64,000 nucleotides of DNA, from contig NC_071395.1 in assembly GCF_022682495.2 (NCBI RefSeq), positions 55,815,242-55,879,241 of the forward strand. The letters run 5' to 3'. How positions within the stretch are numbered: position 1 is the stretch's first letter; each line of letters begins with the position of its first letter. This DNA comes from Desmodus rotundus (taxonomy: Eukaryota > Chordata > Mammalia > Chiroptera > Phyllostomidae). The position numbers and the translations under genes are program-made. The notes beneath the pieces were generated by a model. It had not been told where the DNA came from. It saw nothing but the letters and a program-made list of their open reading frames with translations, and did not search any database. Positions 16,374 through 49,389 of the stretch are shown here, in pieces.

Positions 16374-16380
16374 GGTCCAA

Positions 16381-24010: not shown

Positions 24011-25881
24011 TTACTTTTTTTTAAAATATATTTATTGATTATGCTATTAAAGTCGTCCCATTTCCCGCCCCCCACTCCACTCCATCCTGCCCACCCCCTC
24101 CCTCCCACATTCCCCCCTATAGTTCATGTCCATGGATCACACTTATAAGTTCTTTGCCTTCTACATTTCCTACACTATTCTTACCCTCCCCCTGTCTATT
24201 TTCCACCTATCATCTATGCTACTTATTCTCTGTACCTTTCCCCCCCTCTCCCTCTCCCACTCCCCTATTGACACCCTCCATGTGATCTCCATCTCTATGG
24301 TTCTGTTCCTGGTCTAGTTGTTTGCCTAGTTTGCTCTTGCTTTTGTTTTAGATGTGGTCGTTAATAACTGTGAGTTTGCTGTCATTTTTACTGTTCCTAT
24401 TTTTGATCTTCTTTTTCTTAGGTAACTCCCTTTAACATTTCATATAATAAGGGCTTGGTGATGATGAACTTCTTTAACTTGACCTTATCTGAGAAGCATT
24501 TTATCTTCCCTTCCATTCTAAATGATAGCTTTGCTGGATACAGTAATCTTGGATGTAGGTCCTTGCGTTTAATCTTGGGTAATGTAATTATGATGTGCCT
24601 TGGTGTGTTCCTCCTTGGGTCCAGCTTCTTTGGGACTCTCTGAGCTTCCTGGACTTCCTGGAAGTCTATTTCCTTTGCCATATTAGGGAAGTTCTCCTTC
24701 ATTATTTGTTCAAATAAGTTTTCCATTTTTTGTTCTTCCTCTTCTCCTTCTGGCACCCCTATAATTCGGATGTTGGAACGTTTCGAGATGTCCTGGAGGT
24801 TCCTATGACTCTCCTCATTTTTCCGAGTTCTTGTTTCTTCATTCTTTTCTGGTTGGATGTTTGTTTCTTCCTTCTGGTCCACACCGTTGATTTGAGTCCC
24901 AGTTTCCTTCGCATCACTATTGGTTCCCTGTACATTTTCCTTTGTTTCTATTTGCATAGGCTTCATTTTTTCATCTACTTTTAGAACAGATTCAACCAAT
25001 TCTGTGAGAATATTGATAACCAGTGCTTTGAACTGTGCATCCGATAGGTTGGTTATCTCTCCCTCGCTTAGTTGTATTTTTTCTGGAGCTTTGAAGTGTT
25101 CTGTCATTTGGGCCATTTTTTTTTTTTTTTTTTTTTTTTGGTCTTGGCTCTTCTGTTACTTTAAGGGGCGGAGCCTTAGGTGTTCACCGGGGCAGGTAAC
25201 ACTGGTCACTGCACTGTGACGCTGTATGTGGGGGAGGGGCCGAGAGGGAGCAATGGCGCCCGCCTCACTCTCCTCCAGATTTCAGTCCTTCACTCTGTTA
25301 CCCACAATCAAACTGGGCCCCTCTGGTGCTGGTTCCCCAGTGGGTGGGCTTGTGCACACTCTAGGCCCCTGTGAGTCTCTCCAACGACCTCTCCCATGAG
25401 GCTGGGAGTCTCTCCTGCTGCCGCCCCAACCCCCACGGGAGCTTTCAATCAGAGGTTTGAGGCTTTATTTCCCCGGAGCTGGAGCCCTGGGTTGCGCAGT
25501 CTGCTTCGCTCCCCGCTGTTCGCCCAGTTTATCTGTGTGCGAATGTGGGGCCCTGGGGTGCTACCCACTGCTCTGCCTGCCCCGCTCTCCGCCACTCCGA
25601 GTCCGGCCCTCTCGGTTTATCTGCACAAATGTAGGGTTGCAGGGTCTGCTAGTGCTTGGACTGCCTGCCCCTTTCGTCCCACACTCTACCAGTCTCAGTC
25701 CCGCCATGGCCACGTGAGTCCTCTCCACCCCGGTGCCCGTCTCCGCCCCTCCTACCAGTCTGGATGAATGTTTATTTTGTATTTCCTTGGTGTTGGACCC
25801 CCTTGCCGTTCTATTTTCTGTCAGTTCTGGTTGTGCGAGGAGGTGCAGTGTGTCTACCTACGCTGCCATCTTGGTTCTCCG
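24011..25881 (-). mobile_element. HAL1, full length, deleted-ORF1 subfamily
   Basis: Minus-strand element from a YY1-like CCAAGATGGCAGC at the 25.87-kb end to an AATAAATATATTT and A tail at the left. Order: 5'UTR about 760 bp, A-tract of 24 (plus-strand T run 25116-25139), ORF1 24418-25116, 3'UTR. There is no ORF2. It is about 95% alike by eye to 47936-49787 and shares that copy's ORF1 deletion junction exactly. A TSD is not clear because both flanks are A/T homopolymer-rich. Confidence 0.92.
24418..25116 (-). CDS. HAL1 ORF1p, intact but lacking half of the C-terminal domain
   Basis: An uninterrupted 232-codon frame encoding an L1 ORF1p-like protein. The charged N-terminal region (1-105) starts MAQMTEHFKAPEK. 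The RRM follows (about 108-188, NIRIIGVPEGEEEEQ, TPRHIIITLPKIK). Then comes an abrupt join KIKRKDLHPRLLYPAK into the last third of the C-terminal domain. Compared with full copies, 47 codons are missing in frame, including YKGVPIRLSADFS and the LQARR arginine pair. The same junction occurs at 48691-49389. The start is the ATG directly abutting the A-tract; a second ATG lies three codons in. Family role: trimeric RNA chaperone of L1 particles. Whether this short form binds RNA is doubtful. Confidence 0.85.
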   Translation of the reverse strand: MAQMTEHFKAPEKIQLSEGEITNLSDAQFKALVINILTELVESVLKVDEKMKPMQIETKENVQGTNSDAKETGTQINGVDQKEETNIQPEKNEETRTRKNEESHRNLQDISKRSNIRIIGVPEGEEEEQKMENLFEQIMKENFPNMAKEIDFQEVQEAQRVPKKLDPRRNTPRHIIITLPKIKRKDLHPRLLYPAKLSFRMEGKIKCFSDKVKLKKFIITKPLLYEMLKGVT

Positions 25882-27154
25882 CATCCCTTTTTTTTCTTTG
25901 TACTTCATTGACTCTCCCATCACATCCTGTAATCATTTTCATTGATCCAGCCATGGCTCCTCTGAAGATCTTATTGGAAAAGACAGGGATCATCGGCTCA
26001 CACCTTTGCCTCCACTGGACAGTGACTACTGGGCAAATTTCCCTGCAGGACCTGGGCACAGACCCCTCTGCACTAAGGCTTTCCCCTGGATCAGAGTTGC
26101 CCACAAGCTGGACAGCCTACATTACTTAGTTCCCAGATTAGTGAGGGGGAGCAGAGTTTTCAACCCCATAATATGCCTTTTTTGAATATTAATTATTTTA
26201 AGATGGTTATTTTTAAGAAATAAAAGACTCAGGAAGAACCCTTGACATTCCCTACAACTGCCTAAAAGAATTTAGATGGATGACCTGCTCTGGGAAGGGG
26301 CTCTCATCCCAGGGAACTGTAGTTTAATAGGAGCTGGTGTGTGATGGACAGGGAGGGACCCAGAGAGGCCTCTTTGATCCAAGTCTTCCCTGTGGCCCAT
26401 TGTTAGAGATAGACCAGCAAACATTTGTTTTCCAAACATTGGCCTCTCCATCTCCATGTGAATTACCCTCTTGCCCTTTGAAGTCTAAACCACTAGCCCC
26501 CTTTCTCCATAGCTCAAGGTGACATATAAACCTTAACCGCCAGATTTGTTCTCAGGTCCCATATTCTTACAGAACCCCCATATGTACATATATAATTACA
26601 TTTGGTTATTTTCTCATGTTAATCTGTCTCACTTCAATTTTGTTATTAGATCAGACAGAAAAACTTGGAGGGAAAATTTCCCTCTCTCCCCACACCTGTC
26701 CATCTTTTGCTTTCAGCACTGAAGGTCCTACCTAAATGAAAATGATGTTCAGGAAAGAAAACCAAGAGCAGGTAGGGGCTTCCAGAGAAGGAGCCAGTGA
26801 CTTAGGGAGCAGGATATCATGTTAGTCTCTGGACTGGCCTCCTCATCCAGTTCCTGACCCTTTGCTACTTAAGTTATTACAGGCAGCTGGGGAAGCTCTG
26901 GAACAATTTTAAAAGTATTTCTTTCTTCTCTATCAGATATACTCCTAGCCATTAAGTAGCTCTTTTCATGGGTGTCTGCCTCTCTCCCAGCAGCTTTGGG
27001 TTCTCCCTACTGGTGTTATGTCTTACCCATGACTCCTAGCCCTGCACCATCAAAATTTAGACATCAGCTAAAAGAAAGAAGCTAACCTCTCAAAACCAGA
27101 GTGGGTCGTGTCTCTGGGAAATGACTATGATCTTGCACATTGCACATCCTGGGA
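25882..27154. other. Unannotated DNA
   Basis: No exon recognised. Around 26560-26700 the sequence has LTR-like text (TGTTAATCTGTCTCACTTC, GTTATTAGATCAGACAG) that may be a degraded LTR, but I cannot support a boundary. Confidence 0.3.
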
Positions 27155-27308
27155 AGACACCTGACTCTGTGCCCAACACTGTGGTAATACCTGCATTGTC
27201 TTATTCAACCTCCACAACAACTGAAGGAGGAGAGTCTATTATCAGCCCTTTGTCACATGGGGCCATAGCACAGAGTGCTTAAGTCACTTGCCCAGAGTCA
27301 CAGAGTAG
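27155..27308 (-). repeat. MIR SINE fragment
   Basis: Reverse-oriented MIR core in the expected order: GTGCCCAACACTGTGG, TTATTCAACCTCCACAACAA, CTATTATCAGCCC, TTAAGTCACTTGCCCAGAGT, CACAGAGTAG. Confidence 0.75.
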
Positions 27309-27518
27309 TGGACTTCCCCAAAGTATGGATATTTTCATCTATCTTACCTACCTACTTTTTGGAATGAGAAAGGATGGAGTATTTTGAAGTAATCCAAGTG
27401 AAGACATGATATTTCACCTATTTCTGAATATATTCTTAACAGACAAGAAGTTTAAAGGGAAACATAACCACAAATCATTACCACCCTTAATAATATTAAA
27501 AAGAACCATAATTCTTTT

Positions 27519-29493
27519 TTTAAATATGTATACTGATTATGCTATTACAGTTGTCCCATTTCCTCCCTTTCACTCCACTCCATCCTGCCCACCCTTTCCC
27601 TCCCACATTCCCCCCCTATAGTTCATGTCCATGGGTCATACTTATAAGTTCTTTGGCTTCTGCATTTCCTATACTACTCTTACCCTCCCCCTGTCTATTT
27701 TCTACCTACCATTTATGCTACTTATTCTCTGTACTTTCCCCCCCTTTATCCCCCTCCCACTCCCCTATTGATAACCCTCCACGTGATCTCCATTTCTGTG
27801 GTTCTGTTCCTGTTCTAGTTGTTGGCTTAGTTTGCTTTTGTTTTTGTTTTAGGTGTGGTTGTTAATAACTATGAGTTTGCTGTCATTTTTACTGTTCATA
27901 TTTTTTATCTTCTTTTTCTTAGGTAACTCCCTTTAACATTTCATATAATAAGGGCTTGGTGATGATGAACTTCTTTAACTTGACCTTATCTGAGAAGCAC
28001 TTTATCTGCCCTTCCATTCTAAATGATAGCTTTGCTGGATACAGTAATCTTGGATGTAGGTCCTTGCCTTTCATGACTTGGAATACTTCTTTCCAGCTCC
28101 TTCTTGCCTGTAAGGTCTCTTTTGAGAAATCAGCTGACAGTCTTACGGGAACTTCTTTGGAGGTAACCGTGTCCTTTTCTCTTGCTGCTTCTAAGATTCT
28201 CATCTTCTGTTTCATCTTGGCTAATGTAAATATGTTGTGCCTTGATGTGTTCCTCCTTGGGTCCAGCTTCTTTGGGACTCTCTGAGCTTCCTGGACTTCC
28301 TGGAAGTCTATTTCCTTTGCCATATTAGGGAAGTTCTCCTGTATTATTTGTTCAAATAAGTTTGCAATTTGTTGCTCTTCCTCTTCTCCTTCTGGTACCC
28401 CTATGGTTAGGATGTTGGAATGTTTCAAGATATCCTGGAGGTTCCTAAGCCTCTTCTCATTTTTTTTTTGAATTCTTGTTTCTTCATTTTTTTCTGGTTG
28501 AATGTTTCTTTCTTCCTTCTGGTCCACACCATTGATTTGAGTTCCAGTTTCCTTCCCATCCCTGTTGGTTCCCTGTACATTTTCCTTCATTTCACTCAGC
28601 ATAGCCTTCATCCTTTCATCTAATTTGCAACCAAATTCAACCAATTCTGTGAGAGTCTTGATAACCAGTGTTTTGAACTGTGCATCTCATAGGTTGGCTA
28701 TCTGTTCGTTGCTTAGTTTAATTATTTCTGGGGCTTTGATCTGTTCTTTCATTTGGGCCTTTTTTTTTTTTTTTTTTTTTGGTCTCAGCGTGCCTGTTAT
28801 GTAAATGGACAGAGCCTTAGGTGTTCACCAGGGTGGGGTAATGCTGGTCCCTGTGCTGTGATGCTGTATGTGGGGGAGGGGCCGAGAGGGAGCAATGGCA
28901 CCTGCTCCACTCTCTGCCGGATTTCAGTCACTCCCTCAGCTACCCACAATCAAATTGGGCCCCTCTAGTGCTGATTCCCAAGTGGGTGGGTTTGTGCATG
29001 CTCTAGGCCCCTGTGGGTCTCTCCAATGACCTCTCCTGTGAGGCTGGGAGTTTCTCCTGCTGCCGCCTCAACCCCCACGGGTGTTTTCAATCAGAGGTTT
29101 GAGGCTTTATTTCCCGGAGCTGGAGCCCTGGGTTGCACAGTCTGTTTTGCTTCCCTGCCATTCCTCCCAGTTTACCTATGTGCAAATGTGGGGCCGCGGG
29201 GTCTGCTACTGGTCGCACTGCCTGCCCTGTAGGTCCCACAGTCCACCAGTGTCTGGGTCCGGCCATGTTGCCACGAGTTCCGTCAGCCCCGGCTGCCCAT
29301 CTCTGCCCCTCCTACCGGTCTGGACGAATGTTTCTTCTTTATCTCCTTGGTTGTCGGACTTCCGTGCAGTTCAATTTTCTGTCAGTTCTGATTGGTTTTT
29401 GTTTTTAAATTGTTGTTGTCCTTCTTTTGGTTGTGTGAGGAGGCACAGTGTGTCTACGTACACCTCCATCTTGGTTTCCTCCCTATTTAGTGC
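27519..29493 (-). mobile_element. HAL1, full length, divergent copy
   Basis: Minus-strand element with YY1-like CCAAGATGGAGG near 29474, GC-rich 5'UTR, A-tract of 21 (T run 28760-28780), ORF1 27919-28752, and G-rich 3'UTR ending in AATCAGTATACATATTT-like text. Flanks AGAACCATAATTCTTTT (27502-27518) and AGAACCACAATCCTTTT (29494-29510) are a 17-bp TSD with two mismatches. It has more substitutions and a distinct ORF1 N-terminus, so it is probably the oldest of the complete copies. Confidence 0.9.
27919..28752 (-). pseudogene. HAL1 ORF1, nonsense codon near the N-terminus
   Basis: Full-domain ORF1p-like frame from an ATG at 28752 to a TAA at 27919. The start reads MKEQIKAPEIIKLSNEQIANL, unlike MTEHFKAPEKIQLSEEEIANL of the others. 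An in-frame TGA at 28687-28689 sits where a sister copy has TGG and others TCG/TCA. Downstream of it a 241-residue frame stays open, with RRM text ILTIGVPEGEEEEQ and the complete C-terminal domain (VPVRLSADFS, LQARRSWKEVF, LYPAKLSFRM). One extra lysine is present in RIQKKNEKR. Confidence 0.88.
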
Positions 29494-29712
29494 AGAACCA
29501 CAATCCTTTTTAACAGCTGTATACATCACATGAATAAGCCATGATTTATTTAGTAAATTCATAGTATATGGACAATTAGTTTCTAATTTAGGGCTACTAT
29601 AAAGAATATTGTGTTCAAGGTCCTTGTAACTAAAGCTCAGCAGAATTCTTTAGCATTTTTCTCATGATAAATTCCTAGAGGGAAAACTGTTGCAAAGGTT
29701 ATGTTCATTTTA

Positions 29713-29914
29713 TTTTTATTTATTTTTTAATCCTTGCTGAGGATACATTTATTGATTTCTTCCTTTCTTTTTCTTTTTTAGAGAGAGAAAAACGTCAATG
29801 TGAGAAAGAAACATTGATTGGCTGTTTCCCATACATGTCCCAACCAGGGATCAAACCCACAACCCTCCAGTGCACGAGACGATGCTCCAACCAGCTGAGC
29901 CACCTGGCCAGGGT
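29713..29914 (-). mobile_element. Ves-type bat SINE
   Basis: On the minus strand it begins CCCTGGCCAGGTGGCTCAGC (tRNA-like A box) and contains GGGTTTGATCCCTGG (B box), the CAATGTTTCTTTC block and an A-rich tail. TSD GGTTATGTTCATTTTA (29697-29712) and GGTTATGCTCATTTTA (29915-29930) has one mismatch. Transcribed by Pol III and mobilised by L1 in this family. Confidence 0.92.
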
Positions 29915-29930
29915 GGTTATGCTCATTTTA

Positions 29931-31113
29931 AAGGTGTGTATAATATATGTAATTGAGACTCTTTTCCAGAAAGATAAGAGTCTTTTGACTTTTGTCAAAA
30001 GAGGGAGGCCATCATCAGTATCTGAGTATCTATTCCTCTGCATCTTTACCAAGACTGAATACTAACATTCATTGGTCATTTTGGGGGCTATTATAATAGC
30101 TGAAAATGAAACTGCATTGAGCTTGCATTTCAGTGCTAATTGGAGACAACTAATTTTAAGATGTTTACTGGCCATCTGCGTTTCTCATGTGGTAAATTGC
30201 CTGCCTATGCATTTTGTCTGTTTTGAAAAAGGCCCTCATCTTTTTCCTGAATTTTAAAGGCTCTCTTATATTAATATGTTCATCTTTTTTTTGTGTTGTA
30301 AATACTTTCCTAGTTTATTTGTTTCTATCTGTTGGCTTTATTTTTGTTTTGGGACAGTCATGGCTATCAATCTTTTATTTTGCACTTGCTCTGAGATCAT
30401 ATTTATAAGACCCAAGATTATACAGTTATGTATATTTTATTCTAGTATTTTATTTAAAAGTTTATCATCCTTAATTTTGGGGTCCTTACTGATATAAATT
30501 ATAATTGACATGTGACTATTATTTTATGTATTTCATATTCAATTTTTTAAGATTATATACTTATAAGTAGATTATATATATGAAGATTACATATATCTTT
30601 TCTCATGTTTATTATTGACCATATGTTGTTTTCTTTTCCCTTCTCTATAATCCCTGTAGTTGACCACAATTACAGAGCTCCTACAGTGTTCCATGTGCTG
30701 TGAATGACAGGTGCTGAGGGCACCTTTGTCAACAAAACAGAAACAGGCTCTTCCATTTTGGAGATTAGACCAAAAAAGAGGAGGGGGCAATGAAAAGGAA
30801 ACAATAGATAAGCAATTGAGTTTTAATGCTCTAGAGGAAAATAAAGGAAGGCAAAGGAAGGCAAAGGCAAAGGAATAAGAGAGTGACAGGACAGGTGGGG
30901 ATTCCTTCAGGAAGTCAAAGAAGGCTTCTTGGAGGAGGAACATTTAGCAGGATTATGGTTAGTTATGGCATTTGTGTTTTATCGGTCTTTTAAAAGAATG
31001 AGCCCTTGGATTTATCTGTCAACTCTACTGGATTTCTATTTCTTTATTCATTAATTTCTGTTTGCATATGTATTTAATTCCTATTTTATAACTTCTGTTA
31101 TTTGTTCAAAGTC
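29931..31113. other. Unannotated AT-rich DNA
   Basis: No exon or repeat recognised. A GGCAAAGGAAGGCAAAGG-type imperfect tandem lies near 30845-30870. Confidence 0.35.
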
Positions 31114-31450
31114 TGTGTACCCAATGCTTTACAAGGCTAAAACTCAAAGTGTTAGAGTTTGGAGTAAGGAAAGGTTTATTGATCAAGAAGGTGCTAACCT
31201 GGAAGATGGGGACCCTAATCCTCAAGTCCATCTTTAAAGAGTACTGAGTTCAGGAAAGGGAAAATGGGAGGGGCTGTTCCATAATAACTCAAGCCCCAAG
31301 TGGAATTCCTCTCCTGGTTAGCTTGTGTAAAGTAGGAACTATTAGCCTGAAAGTATTGGGAACAGCAGGCTTGAACGAGATAGAGTTGGGGGATGGAACA
31401 TTTTACTCTGTTACACTCCTAGAGAGGCTTGGGGGCATTCTGGACAGGAC
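31114..31450 (-). mobile_element. Endogenous retrovirus LTR (probable solo LTR)
   Basis: Minus-strand reading gives a polyadenylation signal AATAAA (plus-strand TTTATT at about 31172) followed by CCTTTCCTTACTCCAAACTC and a U5 ending near ...GGGTACA at 31114, a layout typical of gamma-type ERV LTRs. No internal retroviral sequence is seen next to it. The upstream edge is uncertain. Confidence 0.5.
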
Positions 31451-33029
31451 ATGACTAAAAGAGCTCAATTCCATCCTTTGGCTGGGCTGGCAGGCACTGG
31501 TTTGAGAGAACACGCTTTCCTGCTGGGCTCCAGGAAGGGGCACATTGAACAGTGGCAGTATAGTCCACACTCCCTCCCTCAAAGTACTCTGCCCTCTGAC
31601 TGTAATGAGAAGACTTACAGGCCATCATTGAAATGGTTACTCTGTTCTCTAGAACCTCTTTTTCCCTGGAAAGAGAAGATTTCTTTTCCCTGACAGTTTT
31701 GGGGGATTCAGCAGTCTGCAGACTGCAAGGAACAGAGAACATTCTTTTACCCCGAGGATAGAGCTTTTATGTGGTTGGCACTTGCTGAACTGAAGCTTTT
31801 GCAGCTTTAATTGCAGCCTGGAGTAGAAATCTATCTACAAGGAAGTGACTTTCATGCTCATTTTACATTCAGGATTCATACTACCAAAGAGAATGAAGAA
31901 CGTGCTGTGTGAAATAGCACTGGTTCTATTTGAAACTGGGAGCTTCGCTGAGTTCTTGTTCCCACACGAGGCTAGTCCATTTGCCCAGTTGTCTTTCATG
32001 CTCACAGAAAACTCACTTGCCCATTTTACTATTCAGGGTGATTTTTAAAATTGTGTAGCACCTGTTCAAAAGCTGAGAGAAAGCACAGAGACTGTATTAA
32101 AGATGGCAAGTATCATAAAATCAGAAAAATAATGACAGGCAGCCCTGAAAACTGCCCATCAGAAAGCAACAATGAGCCCAGATGTTGCCACATCTAGAGA
32201 CTGGAGCTCATCATTGTGAAATGGGGCTTAGGTTATTTTCATCAGTGGGCAGAGAGGTTGTTTCTTTGCACATTGATATAGAGTTTATGCTTATTCATCT
32301 ATTTCGGAGTATGTACTAGTTTGTTCATTTGAAATGCAGATGAAAAGCTTCTTTTCTCAATTTTTGTACTATACTTCTGTATTGACACATGTACTGTTTT
32401 ATCTGAAGGTCTCTTTAGGGAGGAGAGGAGCATGCTGGTGAAGGGGTGGGTAGAGCACAGGCTGAGAGTGAGCTCCCCCCACCCCCTGCCACCCAAAGTC
32501 AGTCTCCAAGCTCCATGAAGAAGGTACAGGCACACACCTGGGCCTGCCCTCTGTGATTCCTGTTTTTCTGAAGGTAGCAGGGGCTGAGGGACTTGGCAAG
32601 CCAAGGACCCACTCCTGCTGTTTCGTGTAAGGGCCAGTGCCTAAGTCTGGTTCTGGGGAGAGAAAGGAGCAGCCAAAACCCCTTGGACTCCCAGTCTTCC
32701 TCGTCCTCCAGGTGGCTACGGTGCAGGAGGCAGAGGCAGGATGGAGTCTGACCTTTGGCAGAAAGTTCCTCCTGGCCCCTCATGGGCCCCTGTCCCAGAC
32801 TGTTTCCCAGAGACACCTCTGGACCTCAACACCAGCTCATTAAAGAGATCTGACATCAGGTCCCCTCCTTGGCTGGAGGTTCTCACTTGCTCCTGCTCCT
32901 TCTGTTTCTTCTTCTCAGGGTGCAGTCCTGGAGCTGTGGGAGAGCTTGGCCTGGAAGGTTCCCTGGCCTGTCAGGGTCCACAACTCAGCAGCAGGGAAAT
33001 GGCCTTAGCCATAAAGTATAACCAAACAT
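31451..33029. other. Unannotated DNA
   Basis: No exon or repeat recognised with confidence. Overlapping open frames at 32299-33058 lie on both strands and lack known motifs. Confidence 0.35.
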
Positions 33030-33225: not shown

Positions 33226-33339
33226 AGTCATTAAGTAAAAAATTTGGTTGAATAGCCCTGAATTTCTTTTTAAGATGAAATTAATTGGTTTTCATTTGTC
33301 CCAATCCTCTATTCTGGAACTTCTAAAAACATTGTTTTT

Positions 33340-33505: not shown

Positions 33506-34182
33506 TTTTGGAAACATATTTTACTGTCATCTCTTTCTTAGGGATTTACCACCTATATCTTTGTAACAAAGACTGAAAAAATCCAACAGTGAAGAAACTT
33601 ACTTTATTTCATCTAGCATTTTCCATACATTTTTAAGGAATCAATATTTAATGGAAAATACTGTTCTCTGCCCCTTTCATCTTGCTGAGTAGAACACTTC
33701 AGTAATTTATGACACATTCTTTGATAGTTGCCCGATTAACATGGTGCCACGAGCTTACCTTGGTTTTTAGTCTTTTTTTCCTTTTTAAAAAAATATATTT
33801 ATGATTATGCTATTACAGTTGTCCGATTTCCCCCCCTACTCCATTCCATCCTGCCCACCCCCTTCCTCCCACATTCCCCCCCTATAGTTCATGTCCATGG
33901 GTCATACTTATAAGTTCTTTGGCTTCTACATTTCCTATACTATTCTTACCCTCCCCCTGTCTATTTTCCACCTATTATCTATGCTACTTATTCTCTGTAC
34001 CTTTCCCCCCTCTCCCCCTCCCACTCGCCTATTGACAACCCTCCATGTGATCTCCATCTCTATGGTTCTGTTCCTGTTCTAGTTGTTTGCCTAGTTTGCT
34101 CTTGTTTTTGTTTTAGGTGTGGTTGTTAATAACTGTGAGTTTGCTGTCATTTTTACTGTTCCTATTTTTTAACTTCTTTTTC

Positions 34183-35013
34183 TTAGTTAAGTCCCTTTAA
34201 CATTTCATATAATAAGGGCTTGGTGATGATGAACTTCTTTAACTTGACCTTATCTGAGAAGCACTTTATCTGCCCTTCCATTCTAAATGATAGCTTTGCT
34301 GGATACAGTAATCTTGGATGTAGGTCCTTGCCTTTCATGACTTGGAATACTTCTTGCCAGCCCTTTCTTGCCTATAAGGTCTCTTTTGAGAAATCAGCTG
34401 ACAGTCTTATGGGAACTCCTTTGTAGGTAACTGTCTCCTTTTCTCTTGCTGCTTCTAAGATTCTCATCTTCTGTTTCATCTTGGCTAATGTACTTATGAT
34501 GTGCCTTGGTGTGTTCCTCCTTGGGTCCAGCTTCTTTGGGACTCTCTGAGCTTCCTGGACTTCCTGGAAGTCTATTTCCTTTGCCAGATTAGGGAAGTTC
34601 TCCTTCATTATTTGTTCAAATAAGTTTTCAATTTTTTGCTCTTCCTCTTCTCCTTCTGGCACCCCTATAATTTGGATGTTGGAATGTTTCAAGATGTCCT
34701 GGAGGTTCCTAAGCCTCTCCTCATTTTTCTGAATGCTTGTTGCTTGATTCTTTTCTGGTGGGATGTTTCTTCCTTCCTTCTGGTCCACACCATTGATTTG
34801 AGTCCCAGTTTCCTTCCCATCCCTGTTGGTTCCCTGTACATTTTCCTTCATTTCACTCAGCATAGCCTTCATCTTTTCATCTAATTTGCAACCAAATTCA
34901 ACCAATTCTGTGAGCGTCTTGATAACCAGTGTTTTGAACTGTGTATCCCATAGGTTAGCTATCTCTTCCTCGCTTAGTTGTATTTTTTCTGGAGCTTTGA
35001 AGTGTTCTGTCAT
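34183..35013 (-). pseudogene. HAL1 ORF1, late nonsense codon
   Basis: Frame of 277 codons including the stop, from ATG at 35013. It reads MTEHFKAPEKIQLSEEE, the RRM with NIQIIGVPEGEEEEQ and TPRHIISTLAKMK, and the first part of the C-terminal domain (YKGVPIRLSADFSKETL). A TAG at 34372-34374 replaces the CAG of sister copies directly before the ARR arginine pair, leaving 213 residues. The rest of the domain (IPAKLSF-type region and LLYEMLKG-like end) is still recognisable after it. Confidence 0.9.
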
Positions 35014-35758
35014 TTGGGCCTTTTTTTTTTTTTTTTGTCTTGGCGTGTCTGTTGCTTAAAGGGGCGGAGCCTCAGGTGTTCCCAGGGGCGGGGTAATGCT
35101 GGTTGCTGCACTGTGACGCTGTATGTGGGGGAGGGGATGAGAGGAAGCAATGGCGCCCGCTCCCCTCTCCAGGGGATCTCAGTCACTCCCTCCGCCACCC
35201 ACAATCAAACTGGGCCCCTGTGGTGCTGGTTTCCGAGTGGGTGGGCTTGTGCACGCCCTAGGCCCCTGTGGGTCTCTCCAATGACCTCTCCTGTGAGGCT
35301 GGGAGTCTCTCCTGCTGCTGCCCCAACCCCCACGGGAGTTTTCAATCAGAGGTTTGAGGCTTTATTTCCCCACACTGGAGCCCTGGGTTGCGAGGTCTGC
35401 TTTGCTCCCTGCCATTCCTCCCAGTTTACCTATGTGCAAATGTGGGGCCTCAGGGTGCTACCCCTCACTCTGCCTGCCCTGTTCTCCACCACTCTGATTC
35501 CGGCCCTCTCCGTTTATCTGCGCGAATGCGGGGCCGCAGGGTCTGCCAGTGGTCAGACTGCCTGCCCCATTGGTCCCACACTCCACCAGTCTTGGTCCCT
35601 CCACAGCCACCCGAGTCCTCTCCACCCCGGCTGCCCGTCTCCGTCCCTCCTACTGGTCTGGATGAATGTTTATTTTTATTTCCCTGGTGTCGGACTTCCT
35701 TGCCATTTGATTTTCTGTCAGTTCTGGTTGTGCAAGGAGGTGCAGTGTGTCTACCTAC

Positions 35759-35769
35759 ACCGCCATCTT
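35759..35769 (-). promoter_or_regulatory. YY1-like site at HAL1 5' end
   Basis: Minus strand AAGATGGCGGT, eight bases inside the 5' end of the insertion. Same place and core as in the other full copies. Function inferred. Confidence 0.55.
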
Positions 35770-35915
35770 GGCTCTCCGGTTTTTAGTCTTTTAAACCACC
35801 ATAGAAAATATTGCTGTTCTGATCAATTTTTCTATTTTATACTCTTCACACAAAGGTGCTTCTGTCACAATTCTTAAAACTCTACATGTGACATCTCCAC
35901 CTAAAAAAGGTTTTC

Positions 35916-38762: not shown

Positions 38763-38816
<54 letters not shown>

Positions 38817-40450: not shown

Positions 40451-40560
40451 AAACCATATATCTATATATGAAGATTATATATAGATGTATAGATATAGGT
40501 ATAGGTAGAGATATATCTATGTACATCTATATAGGGAGGGGTATAGATACATCTTATTAT
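40450..40560. repeat. AT-rich degenerate tandem (ATATAGAT-like)
   Basis: Repeated TATATCTATATATG, AGATATAGGTATAGGTAGAG and similar units. Confidence 0.8.
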
Positions 40561-40599
40561 ACCACAAATGATATAGTATGAATAGTTAGGAGCAAAGAT

Positions 40600-40765
40600 A
40601 GAAAGAGATTGCTTGTGTTCTATCTTGGACTCTTAATTATTAAATGGGTATCCAGAACAAGCTAGTTCAACTTTCTGTGTCTCAGTTTCTTTGTTAATAA
40701 AATAGAGATAACTATAATACTGACCTTCTTGACTTTGTATCCAGATTATAAATTTAAAAATATAA
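40600..40765 (+). repeat. MIR SINE fragment
   Basis: ATCTTGGACTC, then AGTTCAACTTTCTGTGTCTC, then AGTTTCTTTGTTAATAAAAT, then TGACCTTCTTGAC follows MIR order. Diverged. Confidence 0.5.
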
Positions 40766-41244
40766 ACTTACTGTCAGTTCTACCGTAATACTTGTTTTGA
40801 AAACAAAAATTTGGCCAAGCATGATTCATATATTAGGGAACAATTTAAGCATTCACTTGAATTTTGCATCAGTTTATCGGCAATTTTACCATTAAGAAAC
40901 ACTAGATGAACACAGGAAACTGCACTCTGGTGAATGGTGGGAATACACAATGTGTGCATGGACATGTACCCACACACATGCACACACACCCCCTTTAAAC
41001 TCTTCCATCTCCCTCAGTTCACCGTATGCACTGTGAGTTGTATCTGGTGTTTCAATTTCTACCCCATTTCACAATACCTCACAACAGGCTACATCCATCC
41101 CAAAGTCCAATTCCACAGGCAAACTCCAAGCCTTGTTAGATGCAAAAGGACATATTTATTGTAGTATCATATGAGATGTTTTTCTAATGTCTCATACATA
41201 TCAAAGTGTGTTACACATTATTAGTGGTTTTTCTATCTTTTTAA

Positions 41245-41376
41245 AAATATATCTATTGATTATGCTATTACAGTTGTCCCATTTCCTCCCCTTCACTACA
41301 CTCCATCCTGCCCATCCCCTCCCTCCCACATTCCCCCCCTATAGTTCATGTCCATGGGTCATACTTATAAGTTCTT
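41245..41376 (-). mobile_element. HAL1, very short 3' end only, with TSD
   Basis: About 132 bp of the HAL1 3'UTR end (plus strand ATCTATTGATTATGCTATTA ... CATGTCCATGGGTC). It is bracketed by GGTTTTTCTATCTTTTTAA at 41226-41244 and 41378-41396, a perfect 19-bp TSD. The sense target reads CTT/AAAAAGAT. The few bases GTTCTTTGG fit both the element and the target, so the 5' join has microhomology. Confidence 0.92.
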
Positions 41377-41739
41377 TGGTTTTTCTATCTTTTTAAGTAT
41401 GTCACTGATGAAGTTTTGGAGTGTTGTGCCCCAACTCCATTTTCCCCATAAGGGTGTGCATTGCAGGCTTTTGCATAGCTCGGTGATTTTTTGCAATGCA
41501 AATATCACATTACCACAGAATTGACTGTATTTGCAACAGTGGCAGGTACATGATAAAACATTCAATAAATCAAAGCTATTAGTATGCCCAACATATAGGC
41601 GGCCTGGAAGGAAGGAATATCAGCACACTAGGGGAATGAAGGCAGGTTCTCTTGCCTTTGCAAGCTGCAACAAGGAGGAGTAAAAGGGAGTGTCTTCTAG
41701 CAGCAACTTTAGAAGTGCCTGGTAAAATCAAGTAAGAAC

Positions 41740-42150
41740 TTTGAACTTTATTCTAAAAGTGATGGGAGGCGGTTGAAAGGTTTTGAGAAGGGAATTCAGA
41801 TGATCAGAGTTTCCCTTTAGAAAGTCACTGGCTTTAAGTGAATAGTGGACTGGGAAGAGAGAAGTCCAGCGGCAGATCAACCAGTTTTAGGAGACTGTTG
41901 CACAAATATGGGCAAAAAATAATGTTTCACCAACTGGGGAAGTGAAAGTGAGAGAAATTGGAAAGCAAGGAGGTGAAATAAACAGGATTTGGTGGAATGG
42001 CAAGAAGTGAGGGGGACATAGGATTTAAGATTATTTCCAAGTTCTGGAAGGGGTAGTGTGAGAAAGGTGCCGTTTCCCAAGAAAACAAACCTGAAAGGGA
42101 AAAAACAGATTTGGGGGAGAAAATGACAAATTTCGAGTACCTGGTGCTTT
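41740..42150 (+). repeat. Ancient interspersed repeat, family unassigned
   Basis: Aligns in order with 100-230 of this window (GGTTTTGAGAAGG, AAAGTCACTGG, GGAGACTGTTGCA) and continues with CAGGATTTGGTGGAATGG. The same family I read at 9270-10255. Non-coding. Confidence 0.45.
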
Positions 42151-42755
42151 AATTATGGAATTATCATGGGACCAAGACCCACACAGGATGGAAGGGCATA
42201 AGCCCGCAGTTCCTTAGTGTTCAGATGGGATAGATAGTACATCTCAGATAGACTGAAAACCCAAGGGACATTTTAATCCAATTTTATTTGCCAAAACATG
42301 ACTTTGTGTTTCCAAGAAGAAAGTGTCTGTTAGAGTCTGCAGCAAGATTCTGGAATCCAGTAACTTTTATAAGCAAGAGTGTTTGGTTTTATTTTAGACC
42401 ATCCAGATACCCTGTGAAAAGTTTTGATGAGGTAAGTGTAAATGAATCTGAAACTGATATAAATATTTACATAGTCACTTAAAAATGAAAAGGAAGAGTC
42501 TTTAGGACAAAGTACATTCTGAGTTTCTCTGAACCCAAAACATTTTTTAAAAGGTATGAAATGTGCAAAGACAGCCAACTGAGGCCCATCCATCCTCAAT
42601 TATAACAGTAACATTAATAGAAACTAAAAGATATAACCCAACTTGCTTCCTTGAATGGCAATAAAAATCCAGTGAAAAACCCCATTTTTCTGTTTTTTAC
42701 CTTAGTAGGTATCAAACTCTAGAGGGATGAAAAATACAGAGATTTTATTTCTTTT

Positions 42756-42925
42756 TTCTTTAAATTTTTATTTATTGACTTGAGAGAGAGAGAGAAACAT
42801 CGATTTGTTGTTCCAATTATTGGTGCATTCATCAGTTGATTCTTATGTGTGCTCTGACTGGGGATTGAACCAGAAATCTTGGCATGTTGGGATAACGCTC
42901 TAAACTGAGCACCTGGCCAGGGCCT
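42756..42925 (-). mobile_element. Ves-type bat SINE
   Basis: Minus strand CCCTGGCCAGGTGCTCAG, then GGTTCAATCCCCAGTCAGAG (B box), then CGATGTTTCTCTCTC and an A-rich tail. Shorter and more diverged than the others. Only a weak TTTTATTT-type flank repeat. Confidence 0.85.
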
Positions 42926-43817
42926 TTATTTATTTTAAAAGCATTATTGTTTTGTAATTTTATTTATAACTGGGAAGAATCTGTAGAATAAACTGGTAGG
43001 CTGACTAGATGTAGCTTAGTTTTCAGCCAACCTTAGCAAACAAGGGGGTAAAGTGTGGCATCACTGTAATTACGGTCCCTGAGTGTGTGCGGTTTCAGAT
43101 GTGCTCTATCATTACGCAGTGTGTGTCATGCTGAAGCAAACACTTGGTTGTCTGCAAACAGTGCTTACAGAAAACAGCTAATTGCAATTTACCTTTGTTC
43201 TCCTTGTGGGGTTTATCTTAGTACATGCCAACTGAGTTCTTATAAAGATCCTTAAAAAGAAACATGTACCTTTGTCAGATCTGGAAAAAAAAAAAAACAA
43301 CCCAAAACAGTAGCTAACTGCATTTAATTTGGTTTTGTGAAAGCATAACATGAAATTAGAGATTTAAATTTTTTCACAATAATTACTGTCTGGTGAACTG
43401 ATAAGGACCAGGGATTTACAAGTAGTTTTAAAATTTTCTGTCTTTGAAACTTGTTCTTACTTGTGGATTTTAAGTGAAGAGAAAATAATCTATTCTCAAT
43501 TTGACTTTAAATCATTTATGGACAAAGGGAGTCATGGACAACACATTTCAGAAGCCTTTAGGAGGGCAGAGGAAAGCAGGCCAAGCTGGCAGACAGCAAA
43601 GTGTGAGCAGACACAGGCCCATGAGCCTCCCATGCACACCCAGCTGCAGATGGCTATGGCCACCTGCAAGGTGGACACAAGGAGGGCTGTGTAGGGTGAG
43701 CCTTTTCATATCTGAATGGTAGGAGACCCAGTTATTCATCAACAGTTAAAGGTTCAGCCAGGAATTAGAAATTGTTCATTTTGGTTTGTCCCTCTGGTGT
43801 AATTGTGGAGAGGGCTC

Positions 43818-43838
43818 GTGTATGTGTGTGTGTGTGTT
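43818..43838. repeat. (TG)n microsatellite
   Basis: TGTATGTGTGTGTGTGTGTG. Confidence 0.9.
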
Positions 43839-43997
43839 CGAGGGGGCTGTGAGAGCAGGTTATAAGACATAATGAAATTTATTTGACAAATGGCTAAACA
43901 GGACCCATAGTTAGAAATAGCGTAGGAGAAGCCATTAGGTTTCCTCCAGAATGTGACCACATGCACCCTGGATGAAGAAGATTGTGTTGTGTAGGGT

Positions 43998-44235
43998 GAT
44001 TAAGAACGTGGCACCTGTAGTCACACTTCCTGGGACGTAATGCTGCCTCTCATTTTGTGACCTTGGGCAAGTCACCTCACCCCTCAAAACCTCAGTCTCC
44101 TCATTGGTAGAATGGGAATAGTCATAGTACCCACCTCACCTTCAGATTGTACTGAAGATTCATTGTCAGTCTGAGTACAAGACTTGGCTTAGGGCTTGTC
44201 ATGTAGGAGATGCTTCTTCCACAAGTGTCAGTTCC
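43998..44235 (+). repeat. MIR SINE, nearly full length
   Basis: MIR motifs in order: GATTAAGAACGTGGC, GTGACCTTGGGCAAGTCACC, CCTCAGTCTCCTCATTGGTA, GAATGGGAATAGTCATAGTA, ACCCACCTCACC, and CTTGGCTTAGGGCTTGTCAT at the 3' side. Confidence 0.85.
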
Positions 44236-44654
44236 CAAAATGACACTTTTGGTTCTTGTTATTATTTTACTTTTGTCCATCAGTTTCCTCATCCTGCTTT
44301 CTTCTGATCACTTAGGGTTGTTTTTTCTAGTTCCTTGTGCTATCTGCTTTGTTTATTTATTTTTTAAAATGTTCCTTGATTAAAAATATAAACACTTAAA
44401 GCTACACACTTTTATCCAAAAAATTGCAGTTATATCCATGAGATTTGATGTCACAATGGTCTTATCTTCAAATAGTCTGTCACTATAGTTTTTATTTCCC
44501 TTTTCACATGTGTTATTGAGGATAATTTATTTTTATTTATTTATTTTATGCAGGGTTTCTGTGCTCCAGAAAACATGGCTTGTACAAGTTCTGCTTTTTG
44601 GAATTTACTAAGGTTGTGATTTAGTGCTTAATAATAGTTAATACTTATGAAAAA

Positions 44655-44845
44655 CTTAATACTTAAGAGATATTTTAAGTTCTTTATATGCAGGTTTTTA
44701 TTAAGTCTCACAATAATACTATGATGTAGGCATAATTATTATCCAAATTATACAGGTGAGAACACTGATGTTTAAAGAGATTGAATAACCCACCCAAGAT
44801 TTCACAGCCTTAAGAGCGGAGGGTTAAGCCCAAACTAGGAGCCAA
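44655..44845 (-). repeat. MIR SINE fragment
   Basis: Reverse MIR: TTTTAAGTTCTTTATATGCA, CTCACAATAATACTATGATG, GTGAGAACACTGATGTTTAA, CCCACCCAAGATTTCACAGC. Confidence 0.7.
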
Positions 44846-44892
44846 AAAATGAGTTAGGCAAATGGACAATGACCCAGGGCACTACACTACCA

Positions 44893-45352
44893 AGGGTGAT
44901 GTATTAGTCTTCAGTGACATGGTACCAAAGACTGTGCTGCTTAAACAAAAGAAATGTATTGTCTCACAGTTCTGGAGGCTGGAAATCTGAGGTCAAGGTG
45001 TCAGCAGGGTTGGTTTCTCCTGAGGGCTGTGACAGAGAGGGACCCTTCCATGTTTCTCCTCCAGCATCTCGTGGTTTCAGTTAAACCTTGGCACTCTGTG
45101 GCTTGTGGTAGCACCCCTGGTCTGTGTTCCATCCTCATAGGGCATCTCCCTGTGCACATCTCTCAGTCCAAATTTGTCCTTCTTCTAAGGGCACCTGTCA
45201 TATCAGATTACACCCACCCCAAAGCCCTCATCTTAACTAGTTACATCTGCAATGACCCTATTGCCAAAGAAAGCTACATCCTCAGGTACTGGGGACTAGG
45301 GCTTCAGTATATGAATGGGGGGGTGGGACACAATTCAGCCCATAATGGGTGA
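44893..45352 (-). mobile_element. MaLR (MLT1/MST-type) solo LTR
   Basis: Plus-strand text is the reverse complement of a MaLR LTR: CACAGTTCTGGAGGCTGG, GTCAGCAGGGTTGGTTTCTC, GGTACTGGGGACTAGGGCTT, GACACAATTCAGCCCATAAT. The 132-residue plus-strand frame over it is antisense to the LTR and not a gene. Confidence 0.85.
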
Positions 45353-45438
45353 TAAATCCCCACAGAAATGAATTGAAAATAGCTTTTCACATTATTCAGG
45401 TTTCCAAGCAGGGCTTCTTAAAAAACTGCTGATCTGTG

Positions 45439-45651
45439 TGCCTTGGCCGGGTGGCTCAGCTGGTTAGAGCCTCGTCCTGTGCACCAAAAGTTTGTAGGTT
45501 TGATTCCAGGTGAGGGCACATACATGGGTTGTGGATTCGATCCCAGTTGGAACACATATGGGGGGCAGATCAATGTTTCTCTCTCACATTGGTCTGTCTC
45601 TCTCCATGTCTCTGTTTCTCTCTCATCAATGAACATTTTAATAAAAAGAAG
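45439..45651 (+). mobile_element. Ves-type bat SINE
   Basis: CCTTGGCCGGGTGGCTCAGC (A box), GTAGGTTTGATTCCAGG (B box), two GGGTTGTGGATTCGATCCC-like stretches, TCAATGTTTCTCTCTC and an ATAAAAAG tail. Flanks AAACTGCTGATCTGTG (45423-45438) and AAATTGCTGATGTGTA (45652-45667) are a TSD with three mismatches. Confidence 0.9.
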
Positions 45652-45747
45652 AAATTGCTGATGTGTAAATGGGCACTGCTCTGATGGGACAGACTGGAAT
45701 TGGTGAGGACATTAAAAACAAACAAACAGGTAGATAAATCTCCTCCC

Positions 45748-45946
45748 CAGTGTTATTTTTAGAGAGAGGGGAAGAGAGAGAGAAAGAGAGAGAGAAAGAG
45801 AGGTAGAGAAACATGATCGTCTGCCTCTCATATGGCCACAAGTGGGACCTGGCCCACAACCTATGCATGGACCCTGACCTGGAATTGAACCAGGACCTTT
45901 CAGTGTGTAGGACTACACCCAACCCACTGAGTCACACCAGTCAAGG
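45748..45946 (-). mobile_element. Ves-type bat SINE
   Basis: Minus strand CCTTGACTGGTGTGACTCAG, GAAAGGTCCTGGTTCAATTC (B box), GATCATGTTTCTCTACC and CTCTCTCTTTCTC tail region. TSD not convincing. Confidence 0.87.
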
Positions 45947-46213
45947 CTCCTTCCTTGTATTGAGCTGTTTCTTCAATTCTTTTTCTCTGCATCAAGCGTA
46001 GGCAAGATGTTGGCTGCAACTCTGGGCAGAGCCACTGTTTCTGAAGTTACGTGATACTGGCTCCAGCAGGAGCTACAATTTGAAACTAAATGAGGTGCAG
46101 TGCTTTTTATTAATAGTGAAGCATTTATTCCATAAAGTAAGTTTACACCTTTCAGTAGTACTCCCAAGAAACAATCTGGTCATAAATGTCACGTTTTAAA
46201 ATGAAGGCAATAT

Positions 46214-46413
46214 GCCCTGGCTGGTGTGGCCCAGTGGGTTGAGTGCCTGTGGAGCAAGGGCCACCGGTTCGATTCCCAGTCAGGGCACATATCTGGGTTG
46301 TAGGGCCCACTAGGGGGCACTTGAGAGGCAACCATCCAATGATGTTTCTCTCCCTCTCTTCCCTCCCTTCCCCTCTCTAAAAATAAATAAATACAAACTT
46401 TAAAAAATAAAAT
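46214..46413 (+). mobile_element. Ves-type bat SINE with TSD
   Basis: GCCCTGGCTGGTGTGGCCCA (A box), CCGGTTCGATTCCCAGTCAG (B box), GATGTTTCTCTCCCTC, AAATAAATAAAT tail. A perfect 16-bp TSD, AAAATGAAGGCAATAT, lies at 46198-46213 and 46414-46429, and the target reads TTT/AAAATG. Conserved Pol III boxes and the intact TSD suggest a fairly young insertion. Confidence 0.95.
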
Positions 46414-46451
46414 AAAATGAAGGCAATATATACCCAAAGAAATGCACATTT

Positions 46452-46574
46452 TAGGACAAAGACAACAGTGGGGAGGATTGAATATAGGAGGTGGGAGGTG
46501 GGTAGGGCAGGAGAGAGTAAAGGGGGAAAATGGGGACAACTGTAACTGAACAACAAAAAAATTAAAATATAAAA
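46452..46574 (+). mobile_element. L1 3' end, very short, with TSD
   Basis: 123 bp of the bat L1 3'UTR (G-rich, ending GACAACTGTAACTGAACAAC plus an A-rich tail). A perfect 16-bp TSD, AAAGAAATGCACATTT, lies at 46436-46451 and 46575-46590. It landed six bases beyond the right TSD of the SINE at 46214. Confidence 0.92.
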
Positions 46575-46590
46575 AAAGAAATGCACATTT

Positions 46591-47924
46591 ATGTTCCCCC
46601 CAAACGCAGGCACTAAAAAGTCTTTATACCACTGTTCCAAACCACAGGCCTGAATTCTATCAACAGATTCATGGAGAAACGACGTAATGACTCTCACAAA
46701 CATAATGGTGAGGAAAAGAGCCCAGGCACTGTATGACATCACTCATCCAAGTGTCAGAATAGGGGACAATTAGTTGTTGGATTTCAGGGGGTGGTTATCC
46801 TTAGGGAAGGGCTGTGACTGGAAAGGACAAAGGGGAGGTTCTGGGGAATAGGTAATGTTCTGGTTTCTGACCTGGTTGCTGAGTACATGGTATATTCAGT
46901 TTCTGAAAAAAATCATTGATCCACAGCCTATGACACAGATGTTTTTCTTTAAGTACATTATACTTCAACAAGGTTAAAATATTAAATCTCAATTTTTTTG
47001 TTTCATAAAAGTATTGGATTACATTTTTATTCTTGAATGTTAAAACTTTTAAAAATAGTAAATCATTTCTCTCTACCCCCACAATCCAGAAGCCAAGCAA
47101 ATATTTAGAGGGAAAGAACCAGCATTTATCCTGGGTTCTCTGTACAAACTGTGATACTGAAAACCAAATAGTAGAAGAGAGAAAGTGTCTGTTTGTAAAA
47201 AACATTTATCTAATAAATGAAAAGTAAATAATAGAATCAGAAAATCACAGTTTTGCAACCATCAGTGAGTAAATGGATCCGGACATTGGGTTTCAGCAGC
47301 TGCTAAAGGCCCCAGAAAGAGAGACAACCGGTGGATCTCTCCTGGTGAAAGTAATCATCACACAGCCTCACCAAAGGACTTGAACATGGGTCTGGTCACA
47401 TCTCTGGGTTCAGCCACCAATTTGCAGGAAACACAGAGGACAGAGAATTTGTACTATGAGTATGTAATAAACAGAATCCAGAGTGTACAATGTTTTATAG
47501 GGCAAAGCCTTGAATTCCTCAATAGATAAATTATAAGAAAAAGAAGGGATGGAGGGGAAAAATGTAGGTTAAAGTTGATATGAAATACTAATGCAAGTAA
47601 GATTAAACTGTAGTCTCCAGAAATGGATATTGGGTGACTTCTGCAAAAGTCTGTATTGTAGTTACGTTGGGGGCCCAGGGAGATTGTGATTGAAATGGTC
47701 ACATGTCTTCAACCAGATAGTAGCTACAAAAGGGCCTAATAATAAATCATTAGGTTATACATTTGTTTGGAAGGACCTTTTGTATTGTGGCCTGTTTTAT
47801 AATAAAATATTGTCAATAAAATTTCATATTAAATCATTTACAGTTCCTTTATTGTCCTCTGAAAGTAACACCCCTTGACCAGTTGCCTAAATATGTCCTC
47901 TTCTGGTAAGTTATTTACATATAT
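46591..47924. other. Unannotated DNA
   Basis: No exon or repeat family recognised with confidence. A minus-strand frame 46801-47205 (134 residues) is the longest here and has no motif I know. Confidence 0.35.
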
Positions 47925-47946
47925 AAAATGTGTTTGGGGGAGAACC

Positions 47947-47957
47947 AAGATGGCGGC
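47947..47957 (+). promoter_or_regulatory. YY1-like site at HAL1 5' end
   Basis: AAGATGGCGGC, 11 bases inside the element, matching the L1 YY1 site in sequence and position. Function inferred. Confidence 0.6.
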
Positions 47958-48679
47958 GTAGGTAGACACACTGCTCCTCCTTGCACAACCAGAACTGACA
48001 GAAAATCGAACGGCAAGGGGGTCCAACACCAAGGAAATACAAAATAAACATTCATCCAGACTGGTAGGAGGGGCGGAGACGGGCACCGGGGTGGAGAGGA
48101 CTCACGTGGCCATGGCTGGACTGAGACTGGCGGAGTGTGGGACAAACAGAGCAGGCAGTCCCAGCACTAGCAGACCCTGCAACCCTACATTTGTGCAGAT
48201 AAACCGAGAGGGCCGGACTCGTAGTGGTGGAGAACGGGGCAGGCAGAGCAGTGGGTAGCACCCCAGGGCCCCACATTCGCACACAGATAAACCAGGCGAA
48301 CGGCGGGGAGCGAAGCAGACTGCACAACCCAGGACTCCAGCTCCAGGAAATAAAGCCTCAAACCTCTGATTGAAAGCGCCCATGGGGGTTGGGGCAGCAG
48401 CAGGAGAGACTCCCAGCCTCACGGGAGAGGTCGTTGGAGAGACACACAGGGGCCTAGAGTGTGCACAAGCCCACCCACTGGGGAACCAGCACCAGAGGGG
48501 CCCAGTTTGATTGTGGGTAACGGAGTGAAGGACTGAAATCTGGAGGAGAGTGAGGCGGGCGCCATTGCTCCCTCTCGGCCCCTCCCCCACATACAGCGTC
48601 ACAGCACAGCCACCAGCGTTACCCCACCCCGGTGAACACCTAAGGCTCCGCCCCTTAAAGTAACAGACGAGCCAAGACC

Positions 48680-48691
48680 AAAAAAAAAAAA
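48680..48691 (+). repeat. Internal A-tract between HAL1 5'UTR and ORF1
   Basis: Twelve A residues that run into the first base of the ORF1 start codon. Homologous to the longer tracts of the other copies. Confidence 0.95.
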
Positions 48692-49389
48692 TGGCCCAAA
48701 TGACAGAACACTTCAAAGCTCCAGAAAAAATACAACTAAGCGAGAAAGAGATAGCCAACCTATCAGATGCACAGTTCAAAGCACTGGTTATCAATATGCT
48801 CACAGAATTGGTTGAATCTGTTCTAAAAGTAGATGAAAAAATGAAGCCTATGCAAATAGAAACAAAGGAAAATGTACAGGGAACCAATAGTGATGCGAAG
48901 GAAACTGGGACTCAAATCAACGGTGTGGACCAGAAGGAAGAAAGAAACATCCAACCAGAAAAGAATGAAGAAACAAGAACTCGGAAAAATGAGGAGAGGC
49001 ATAGGAACCTCCAGGACATCTCGAAACGTTCCAACATCCGAATTATAGGGGTGCCAGAAGAAGAAGAGGAAGAACAAAAAATGGAAAACTTATTTGAACA
49101 AATAATGAAGGAGAACTTCCCTAATCTGGCAAAGGAAATAGACTTCCAGGAAGTCCAGGAAGCTCAGAGAGTCCCAAAGAAGCTGGACCCAAGGAGGAAC
49201 ACACCAAGGCACATCATAATTACATTACCCAAGATTAAACGCAAGGACCTACATCCAAGATTACTGTATCCAGCAAAGCTATCATTTAGAATGGAAGGGA
49301 AGATAAAGTGCTTCTCAGATAAGGTCAAGTTAAAGAAGTTCATCATCACCAAGCCCTTATTATATGAAATGTTAAAGGGAGTTACCTAA
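48691..49389 (+). CDS. HAL1 ORF1p, intact but lacking half of the C-terminal domain
   Basis: Uninterrupted 232-codon L1 ORF1p-like frame. Residues 1-105 are acidic and glutamate/lysine rich (MAQMTEHFKAPEK onward), likely coiled coil. The RRM spans about 108-188 (NIRIIGVPEEEEEEQ, NLFEQIMKENFP, TPRHIIITLPKIK). The sequence then jumps through KIKRKDLHPR to LLYPAKLSFRM and the normal LLYEMLKGVT end. The missing 47 codons hold the YKGVPIRLSADFS and QARR segments. In sister copies those bases lie between ATTAAAC and GCAAGG; here the two are joined as ATTAAACGCAAGG with the frame kept. The protein should still trimerise, but RNA binding by the C-terminal domain should be impaired. Confidence 0.88.
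   Translation: MAQMTEHFKAPEKIQLSEKEIANLSDAQFKALVINMLTELVESVLKVDEKMKPMQIETKENVQGTNSDAKETGTQINGVDQKEERNIQPEKNEETRTRKNEERHRNLQDISKRSNIRIIGVPEEEEEEQKMENLFEQIMKENFPNLAKEIDFQEVQEAQRVPKKLDPRRNTPRHIIITLPKIKRKDLHPRLLYPAKLSFRMEGKIKCFSDKVKLKKFIITKPLLYEMLKGVT

Follow-up and report, generated by a model that had tools for sequence, protein, structure and literature searches.

Two HAL1 copies with the same ORF1 deletion

The stretch analysed here (the window) comprises 64,000 nucleotides of contig NC_071395.1 from Desmodus rotundus, and blastn located eight HAL1-like insertions in it, lying on both strands. HAL1s are described as L1-dependent derivatives that hold only open reading frame 1 (ORF1) and that evolved in mammals several times, each time independently (PMC5753468, PMC5322556, PMC4161310). 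Two of the insertions, C25m and C48p, have lost the same piece of ORF1 and can still be read through the remainder (Table 1). We consider it quite probable that they represent a fairly young, trans-mobilised HAL1 sub-lineage that was founded by one deleted element and carries its ORF1 as a passenger. Coordinates are positions within the window, and the copies are named C1m, C16p, C25m, C28m, C34m, C48p and C63p; the alignment covered these seven of the eight and omitted the 141-bp piece at 41238.

The junction ATTAAACGCAAGG has exactly two matches in the window, one in C25m and one in C48p. The deletion removes 141 bp, in frame, as measured on the undeleted copy C1m; the identical in-frame loss described in the original prediction was thus recovered, and its size came to 47 codons in place of about 48 residues. 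By inspection, the breakpoint cannot slide by one base, so the identity of the two junctions is exact. In C1m, the ends of the deletion fall within ATTAAACAGAAGG and ATGAAAGGCAAGG, spaced 141 bp, and the junction derives its left part from the former and its right part from the latter. The two segments form an imperfect 13-bp direct repeat that is identical at 9 of 13 positions, a level reached by only ~0.3% of position pairs 30–499 bp apart in three full copies. Because the breakpoint lies in this repeat, the deletion was probably made by slippage or template switching, which would have taken place across the repeat in the source element during reverse transcription or replication. Immediately before the breakpoint, ATTACCC...ATTAAAC is common to C1m, C25m and C48p and differs in C16p, C28m and C34m; in that stretch, C1m approximates the undeleted parent best.

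Table 1. HAL1-like copies in the window and features of the shared deletion
Feature	Position	Strand	Description	Basis
HAL1-like element C25m	24013..25880	-	near full length, 141-bp ORF1 deletion	blastn, alignment
ORF1 of C25m	24418..25116	-	open, 232 codons, internally deleted	
Deletion junction ATTAAACGCAAGG in C25m	24561..24573	-	exact match	
HAL1-like element C48p	47936..49795	+	near full length, same 141-bp ORF1 deletion as C25m	blastn, alignment
ORF1 of C48p	48691..49389	+	open, 232 codons, internally deleted	
Deletion junction ATTAAACGCAAGG in C48p	49234..49246	+	exact match	
5' target-site duplication AAAATGTGTTT of C48p	47925..47935	+	exact 11-bp repeat on both sides	
3' target-site duplication of C48p	49788..49798	+	overlaps A tail	
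HAL1 copy C1m	696..1437	-	5'-truncated, 141-bp segment retained	blastn, alignment
ATGAAAGGCAAGG in undeleted copy C1m	1244..1256	-	3' member of imperfect repeat at deletion ends	
ATTAAACAGAAGG in undeleted copy C1m	1385..1397	-	5' member of imperfect repeat at deletion ends	
Full-domain HAL1 copy C16p	15611..17613	+	ORF1 frameshift 16758-16764; exact 16-bp target-site duplication	
Full-domain HAL1 copy C28m	27515..29483	-	TGA at 28687-28689	
Full-domain HAL1 copy C34m	33791..35777	-	TAG at 34372-34374; exact 15-bp target-site duplication	
HAL1 copy C63p	62802..64000	+	cut by window end; TGA at 63680-63682	
HAL1 3' end only	41238..41378	-	141 bp, 5'-truncated; repeated AAAAAGATAGAAAAACCA on each side	

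Probable loss of RNA binding and the still-open reading frame

The ORF beginning at 48691 is still recognised by Pfam as Transposase_22 (2.1e-18) and Tnp_22_dsRBD (8.2e-13). Its match to the profile of the RNA recognition motif (RRM)-like domain stops at position 74 of 98 and its match to the dsRBD-like profile begins no earlier than position 17 of 65, whereas a full-domain copy matches to position 98 of 98 and from position 2 of 65; the lost codons straddle the border between the RRM-like and the C-terminal domain. When aligned to human L1 ORF1p chains, the full-domain copy gave an unbroken alignment over the RRM and the C-terminal domain (E = 1.4e-47), whereas the deleted ORF1p aligned in two pieces that skipped the AAREKG and LQARREW segments of the chain. 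With a single offset of 103 and the numbering of PMC2951350, the skipped segments contain REKG235-238 and RR261-262. The human ORF1p mutants concerned, REKG235-238AAAA and RR261-262AA, are both reported there to be retrotransposition-defective with fewer cytoplasmic foci; in RR261-262AA, ORF1p but not ORF2p was severely reduced in ribonucleoprotein particles, and the interpretation given was that ORF2p can join its RNA without ORF1p binding (PMC2951350). Since the positions of both motifs are removed together with the last part of the RRM-like domain and the first part of the C-terminal one, the shortened ORF1p would probably not bind RNA. AlphaFold models from four-sequence alignments reached a mean predicted local distance difference test score of 34.6 for the deleted and 38.8 for the full-domain ORF1p, which is too poor to test folding.

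All the defects that the original prediction had listed in other copies (the frameshift at 16758-16764, TGA at 28687, TAG at 34372 and TGA at 63680) are present. Each broken copy has one disabling change only, within the part that is present; in C16p it is one extra A within an A-run, and C63p ends at the RRM. That the deleted copies alone keep an open ORF1 holds against the four full-domain copies, one of which (C63p) is partial, but not against the truncated C1m, which retains the 141-bp segment and has an open frame in what remains of its ORF1 (~110 codons). The two deleted copies carry 5 and 2 private ORF1 substitutions, which gives a probability of remaining open of 0.79 and 0.91, and the four full copies carry 16, 32, 11 and 5 (the last over 453 bp). 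Because substitutions are so few that neutral decay predicts open frames, the openness of the deleted ORF1s would need no selection.

Between them, the two deleted ORF1s differ at 10 bases, of which 8 are nonsynonymous and 2 synonymous, with a ratio of nonsynonymous to synonymous rates (dN/dS) of 1.29; under neutrality (kappa 2), ~72% of changes would be nonsynonymous, 23% would be synonymous and 4.5% would create a stop. On the branch to the deleted pair, nine nonsynonymous and no synonymous changes were counted, compared to 20 and 10 for other shared changes (p = 0.08; two-state sites, with sites of three or more states left out). The dN/dS values, counted pairwise from pairs that are not independent, were 0.50–0.83 in the six pairs among C16p, C28m, C34m and C63p and 0.87–1.38 in the eight pairs of these copies with a deleted one (146–228 codons). 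A dN/dS below 1 was not found within the deleted-copy ORF1, on small numbers. This pattern points weakly to a mild constraint in the full-domain lineages that was lost in the deleted lineage, and it runs opposite to what constraint on the short ORF1 predicts. The original prediction had offered youth or some constraint as the cause of the open frames, and constraint on the shortened ORF1 was not supported by these comparisons.

It is unlikely that the shortened ORF1p functions, in the old way or a new one, and that the lineage was kept by selection in cis. The in-frame deletion, the two frames of 232 codons and the recognition by Pfam of parts of both nucleic-acid-binding domains would fit such a protein, but there is no synonymous excess either within the pair or on its shared branch, the positions that disable human ORF1p when mutated are gone, and mutations are few enough for open frames to be expected.

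Origin of the two deleted copies

C25m and C48p are 96.4% identical over 1870 aligned columns (blastn) and group as a clade in each of five trees of the window copies built from overlapping regions, with local support of 0.989–1.000 (FastTree). Nine ORF1 states at two-state sites are common to the two and occur in no other copy covering those sites. In the alignment, their homology stops at the element ends, and their differences are distributed along the whole element. The 2-kb flanks share one 52-bp match of 81% and five matches of at most 19 bp and are thus unrelated. Because the junction and the clade are common, the flanks are unrelated and C48p has an 11-bp target-site duplication (TSD), C25m and C48p most likely derive from one deleted source element by separate insertions and not by segmental duplication. 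The descent from one deleted source that had been proposed from the junction was thereby upheld. The accompanying claim of amplification stands in a weak form, as at least two insertions, and two copies do not take it further.

A segmental duplication or gene conversion, in which the deletion would never have been retrotransposed twice, is very unlikely: the loci lie less than 25 kb apart and C25m has no clean TSD, but a shared flank of any substance was not found within 2 kb, and the end of homology at the element ends, the TSD of C48p and the spread of differences along the element all stand against it. Even less credit goes to the idea that the imperfect repeat gave rise to the deletion twice, independently. 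A direct repeat with 9 of 13 identical positions at the breakpoint could recur, but the exact junction is identical, the clade and the nine ORF1 states elsewhere are common to both copies, and trees from the rest of the element unite them. The possibility that the missing piece was an intron spliced from the source RNA, which would suit an exact deletion in an RNA-borne element, is virtually nil, since the removed segment has AG at both ends and no shift of the junction gives GT-AG or GC-AG.

Divergence, age and weight of the evidence

The Kimura two-parameter (K2P) distances between C25m and C48p were 0.049 in the 5' untranslated region (5'UTR), 0.017 in ORF1 before the junction, 0.007 in ORF1 after it and 0.015 in the 3'UTR, compared to 0.133–0.189, 0.052–0.134, 0.007–0.071 and 0.053–0.114, respectively, in other copy pairs. 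The low divergence supports, in a weak form, a relative youth of the deleted pair. A much greater youth, read from the count of private changes, was rejected since the count is biased, each deleted copy having a close sister in the sample. The region trees conflict over the full-domain copies (C16p, C28m, C34m and C63p), which gives these a mosaic look. By FastTree, the partner of C34m is C63p in the 5'UTR (0.987) but C28m in the 5' part of ORF1 (0.997), and in the 3'UTR C34m stands beside the deleted pair (0.962). Because the trees give C34m different partners, HAL1 sources in the window seem to have exchanged parts.

In the preferred reading, one HAL1 element with the 141-bp loss would have founded a sub-lineage whose RNA is copied in trans by the L1 machinery, namely ORF2p, with ORF1p coming from L1 or from full HAL1s. 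ORF1 would be a passenger that is still open since little time has elapsed. The readable gene is thus best explained by recent insertion and not by usefulness, and the find is real but fairly ordinary.

Several points weigh against this reading. After the junction, C25m and C48p are no closer than C48p and C28m (K2P 0.007 each). CpG retention was 19/46 in the deleted pair and 27/98 in the four full copies, measured with matched references (p = 0.13), so the relative youth of the pair is supported by the low distances and gains little from CpG sites. Outside CpG sites, the pair differs at 22/750 positions in the 5'UTR and at 14/1095 elsewhere, a difference of approximately twofold; at 15 of its 35 5'UTR substitutions both states are also present in other copies, and the excess could come from recurrent mutation or from mixing between lineages. 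C25m has by eye at most a degenerate, A-rich TSD candidate. Five comparisons with C1m over 64 codons gave dN/dS values of 0.82–1.96 and blur the contrast between full and deleted copies. The in-frame length, which has a 1-in-3 chance, may be a sign of selection for keeping the frame open. From stops alone, ~1.9 of the 4 full copies are expected to be broken, and three were broken by a stop and one by a frameshift, so the full copies are somewhat more broken than a simple stop rate predicts. Finally, the samples are small, as seen in the p-values for openness (2/2 deleted versus 0/4 full-domain copies, Fisher p = 0.067), for the nine-to-zero branch count (0.08) and for CpG retention (0.13).

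A large young family of HAL1s with deleted ORF1p, succeeding as an RNA parasite of L1 and full HAL1s without an RNA-binding ORF1p of its own, is decidedly improbable. Two copies are evidence of descent and of two or more insertions but not of a successful family, and a naive extrapolation from two copies per 64 kb (95% Poisson interval ~7,600–226,000 copies per assumed 2 Gb) is inflated, as the window was picked for them. If such a family existed, a truncated and possibly still trimerising ORF1p might poison helper trimers. A sizeable family would make it possible to test in nature if an L1 derivative with ORF1 alone has to encode an RNA-binding ORF1p; amplification without the RNA-binding core would favour the view that helpers acting in trans can serve HAL1 RNA.

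Other features of the HAL1 copies and neighbouring elements

Eight HAL1-like insertions in 64 kb make a dense set. The distance from ORF1 to the tail is ~400 bp in C16p, C25m, C28m, C34m, C48p and C1m (alignment), and ORF2 is absent between ORF1 and the A-rich tail, where no same-strand stop-to-stop frame of ≥100 amino acids was found in six copies. Exact TSDs of 11, 15 and 16 bp were present at three of the five copies examined (C48p, C34m and C16p), and no clean TSD was seen at C25m or C28m. By eye, the 18-bp repeat AAAAAGATAGAAAAACCA brackets the 141-bp HAL1 3' end, which is a short 5'-truncated insertion. Each of the six copies that span the ORF1 start has an A-run of variable length, ~10–24 bases, immediately ahead of it (before 48691 in C48p); the A-run might be a relic of a 5'UTR module fused to ORF1. 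C28m has a separate 5'UTR deletion at ~29195 (-) that joins two similar GGCCCCACATT segments and looks, by eye, like another slippage-like loss among these HAL1s.

Antisense frames of 156–299 codons are open over the HAL1 5'UTR in five copies: 48102-48911 (-), 15723-16502 (-), 34978-35877 (+), 29042-29533 (+) and 62964-63434 (-). They were set aside, as no clear codon-position bias was seen (in the C48p frame, variable columns numbered 57/185, 53/185 and 64/186, by count without a statistical test), and they are probably a by-product of the GC-rich sequence. Two further elements, at ~49830-50153 (+) and 57500-58757 (-), are presumably autonomous L1-like 3' ends with remnants of the ORF2 C-terminus. 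Their 3'UTRs are ~60–72% similar to the HAL1 3'UTR over 114–173 bp.

Comparison with known systems

The junction, shared words from ORF1 or from the 3'UTR, and the protein had no relative in viral and prokaryotic contigs, a result with no bearing on mammals; five viral-contig stretches matched a peptide pattern and none was confirmed. An internally deleted HAL1 ORF1 was not found in the titles and abstract starts of the literature matches listed, a search that did not extend to Repbase, and its novelty is uncertain. A table from 2011 gives young HAL1 families for marmoset and guinea pig and, within that table, none below 1% divergence for Myotis lucifugus (PMC3183009).

The copies in the window resemble HAL1s in their GC-rich 5'UTR, in an ORF1 with L1 RBD-like and dsRBD-like Pfam domains, in the absence of ORF2 within the elements, and in their A-rich tail and the TSDs at three of five copies. 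C25m and C48p differ in being without 47 codons at the border of the RRM and the C-terminal domain. Judged by their sequence, they are HAL1s by descent, but with a predicted ORF1p that is incomplete in both domains. In comparison with human L1 ORF1p (PDB IDs: 2YKO, 2YKP and 2LDY), a full-domain copy can be aligned continuously from the RRM through the C-terminal domain, whereas the deleted form has a gap over the positions of REKG235-238 and RR261-262. The deleted HAL1s would resemble the short interspersed elements and SVA, which are non-autonomous, trans-mobilised parasites of L1, in depending on L1 ORF2p in trans, but unlike these they retain their own long 5'UTR and a long remnant of ORF1.

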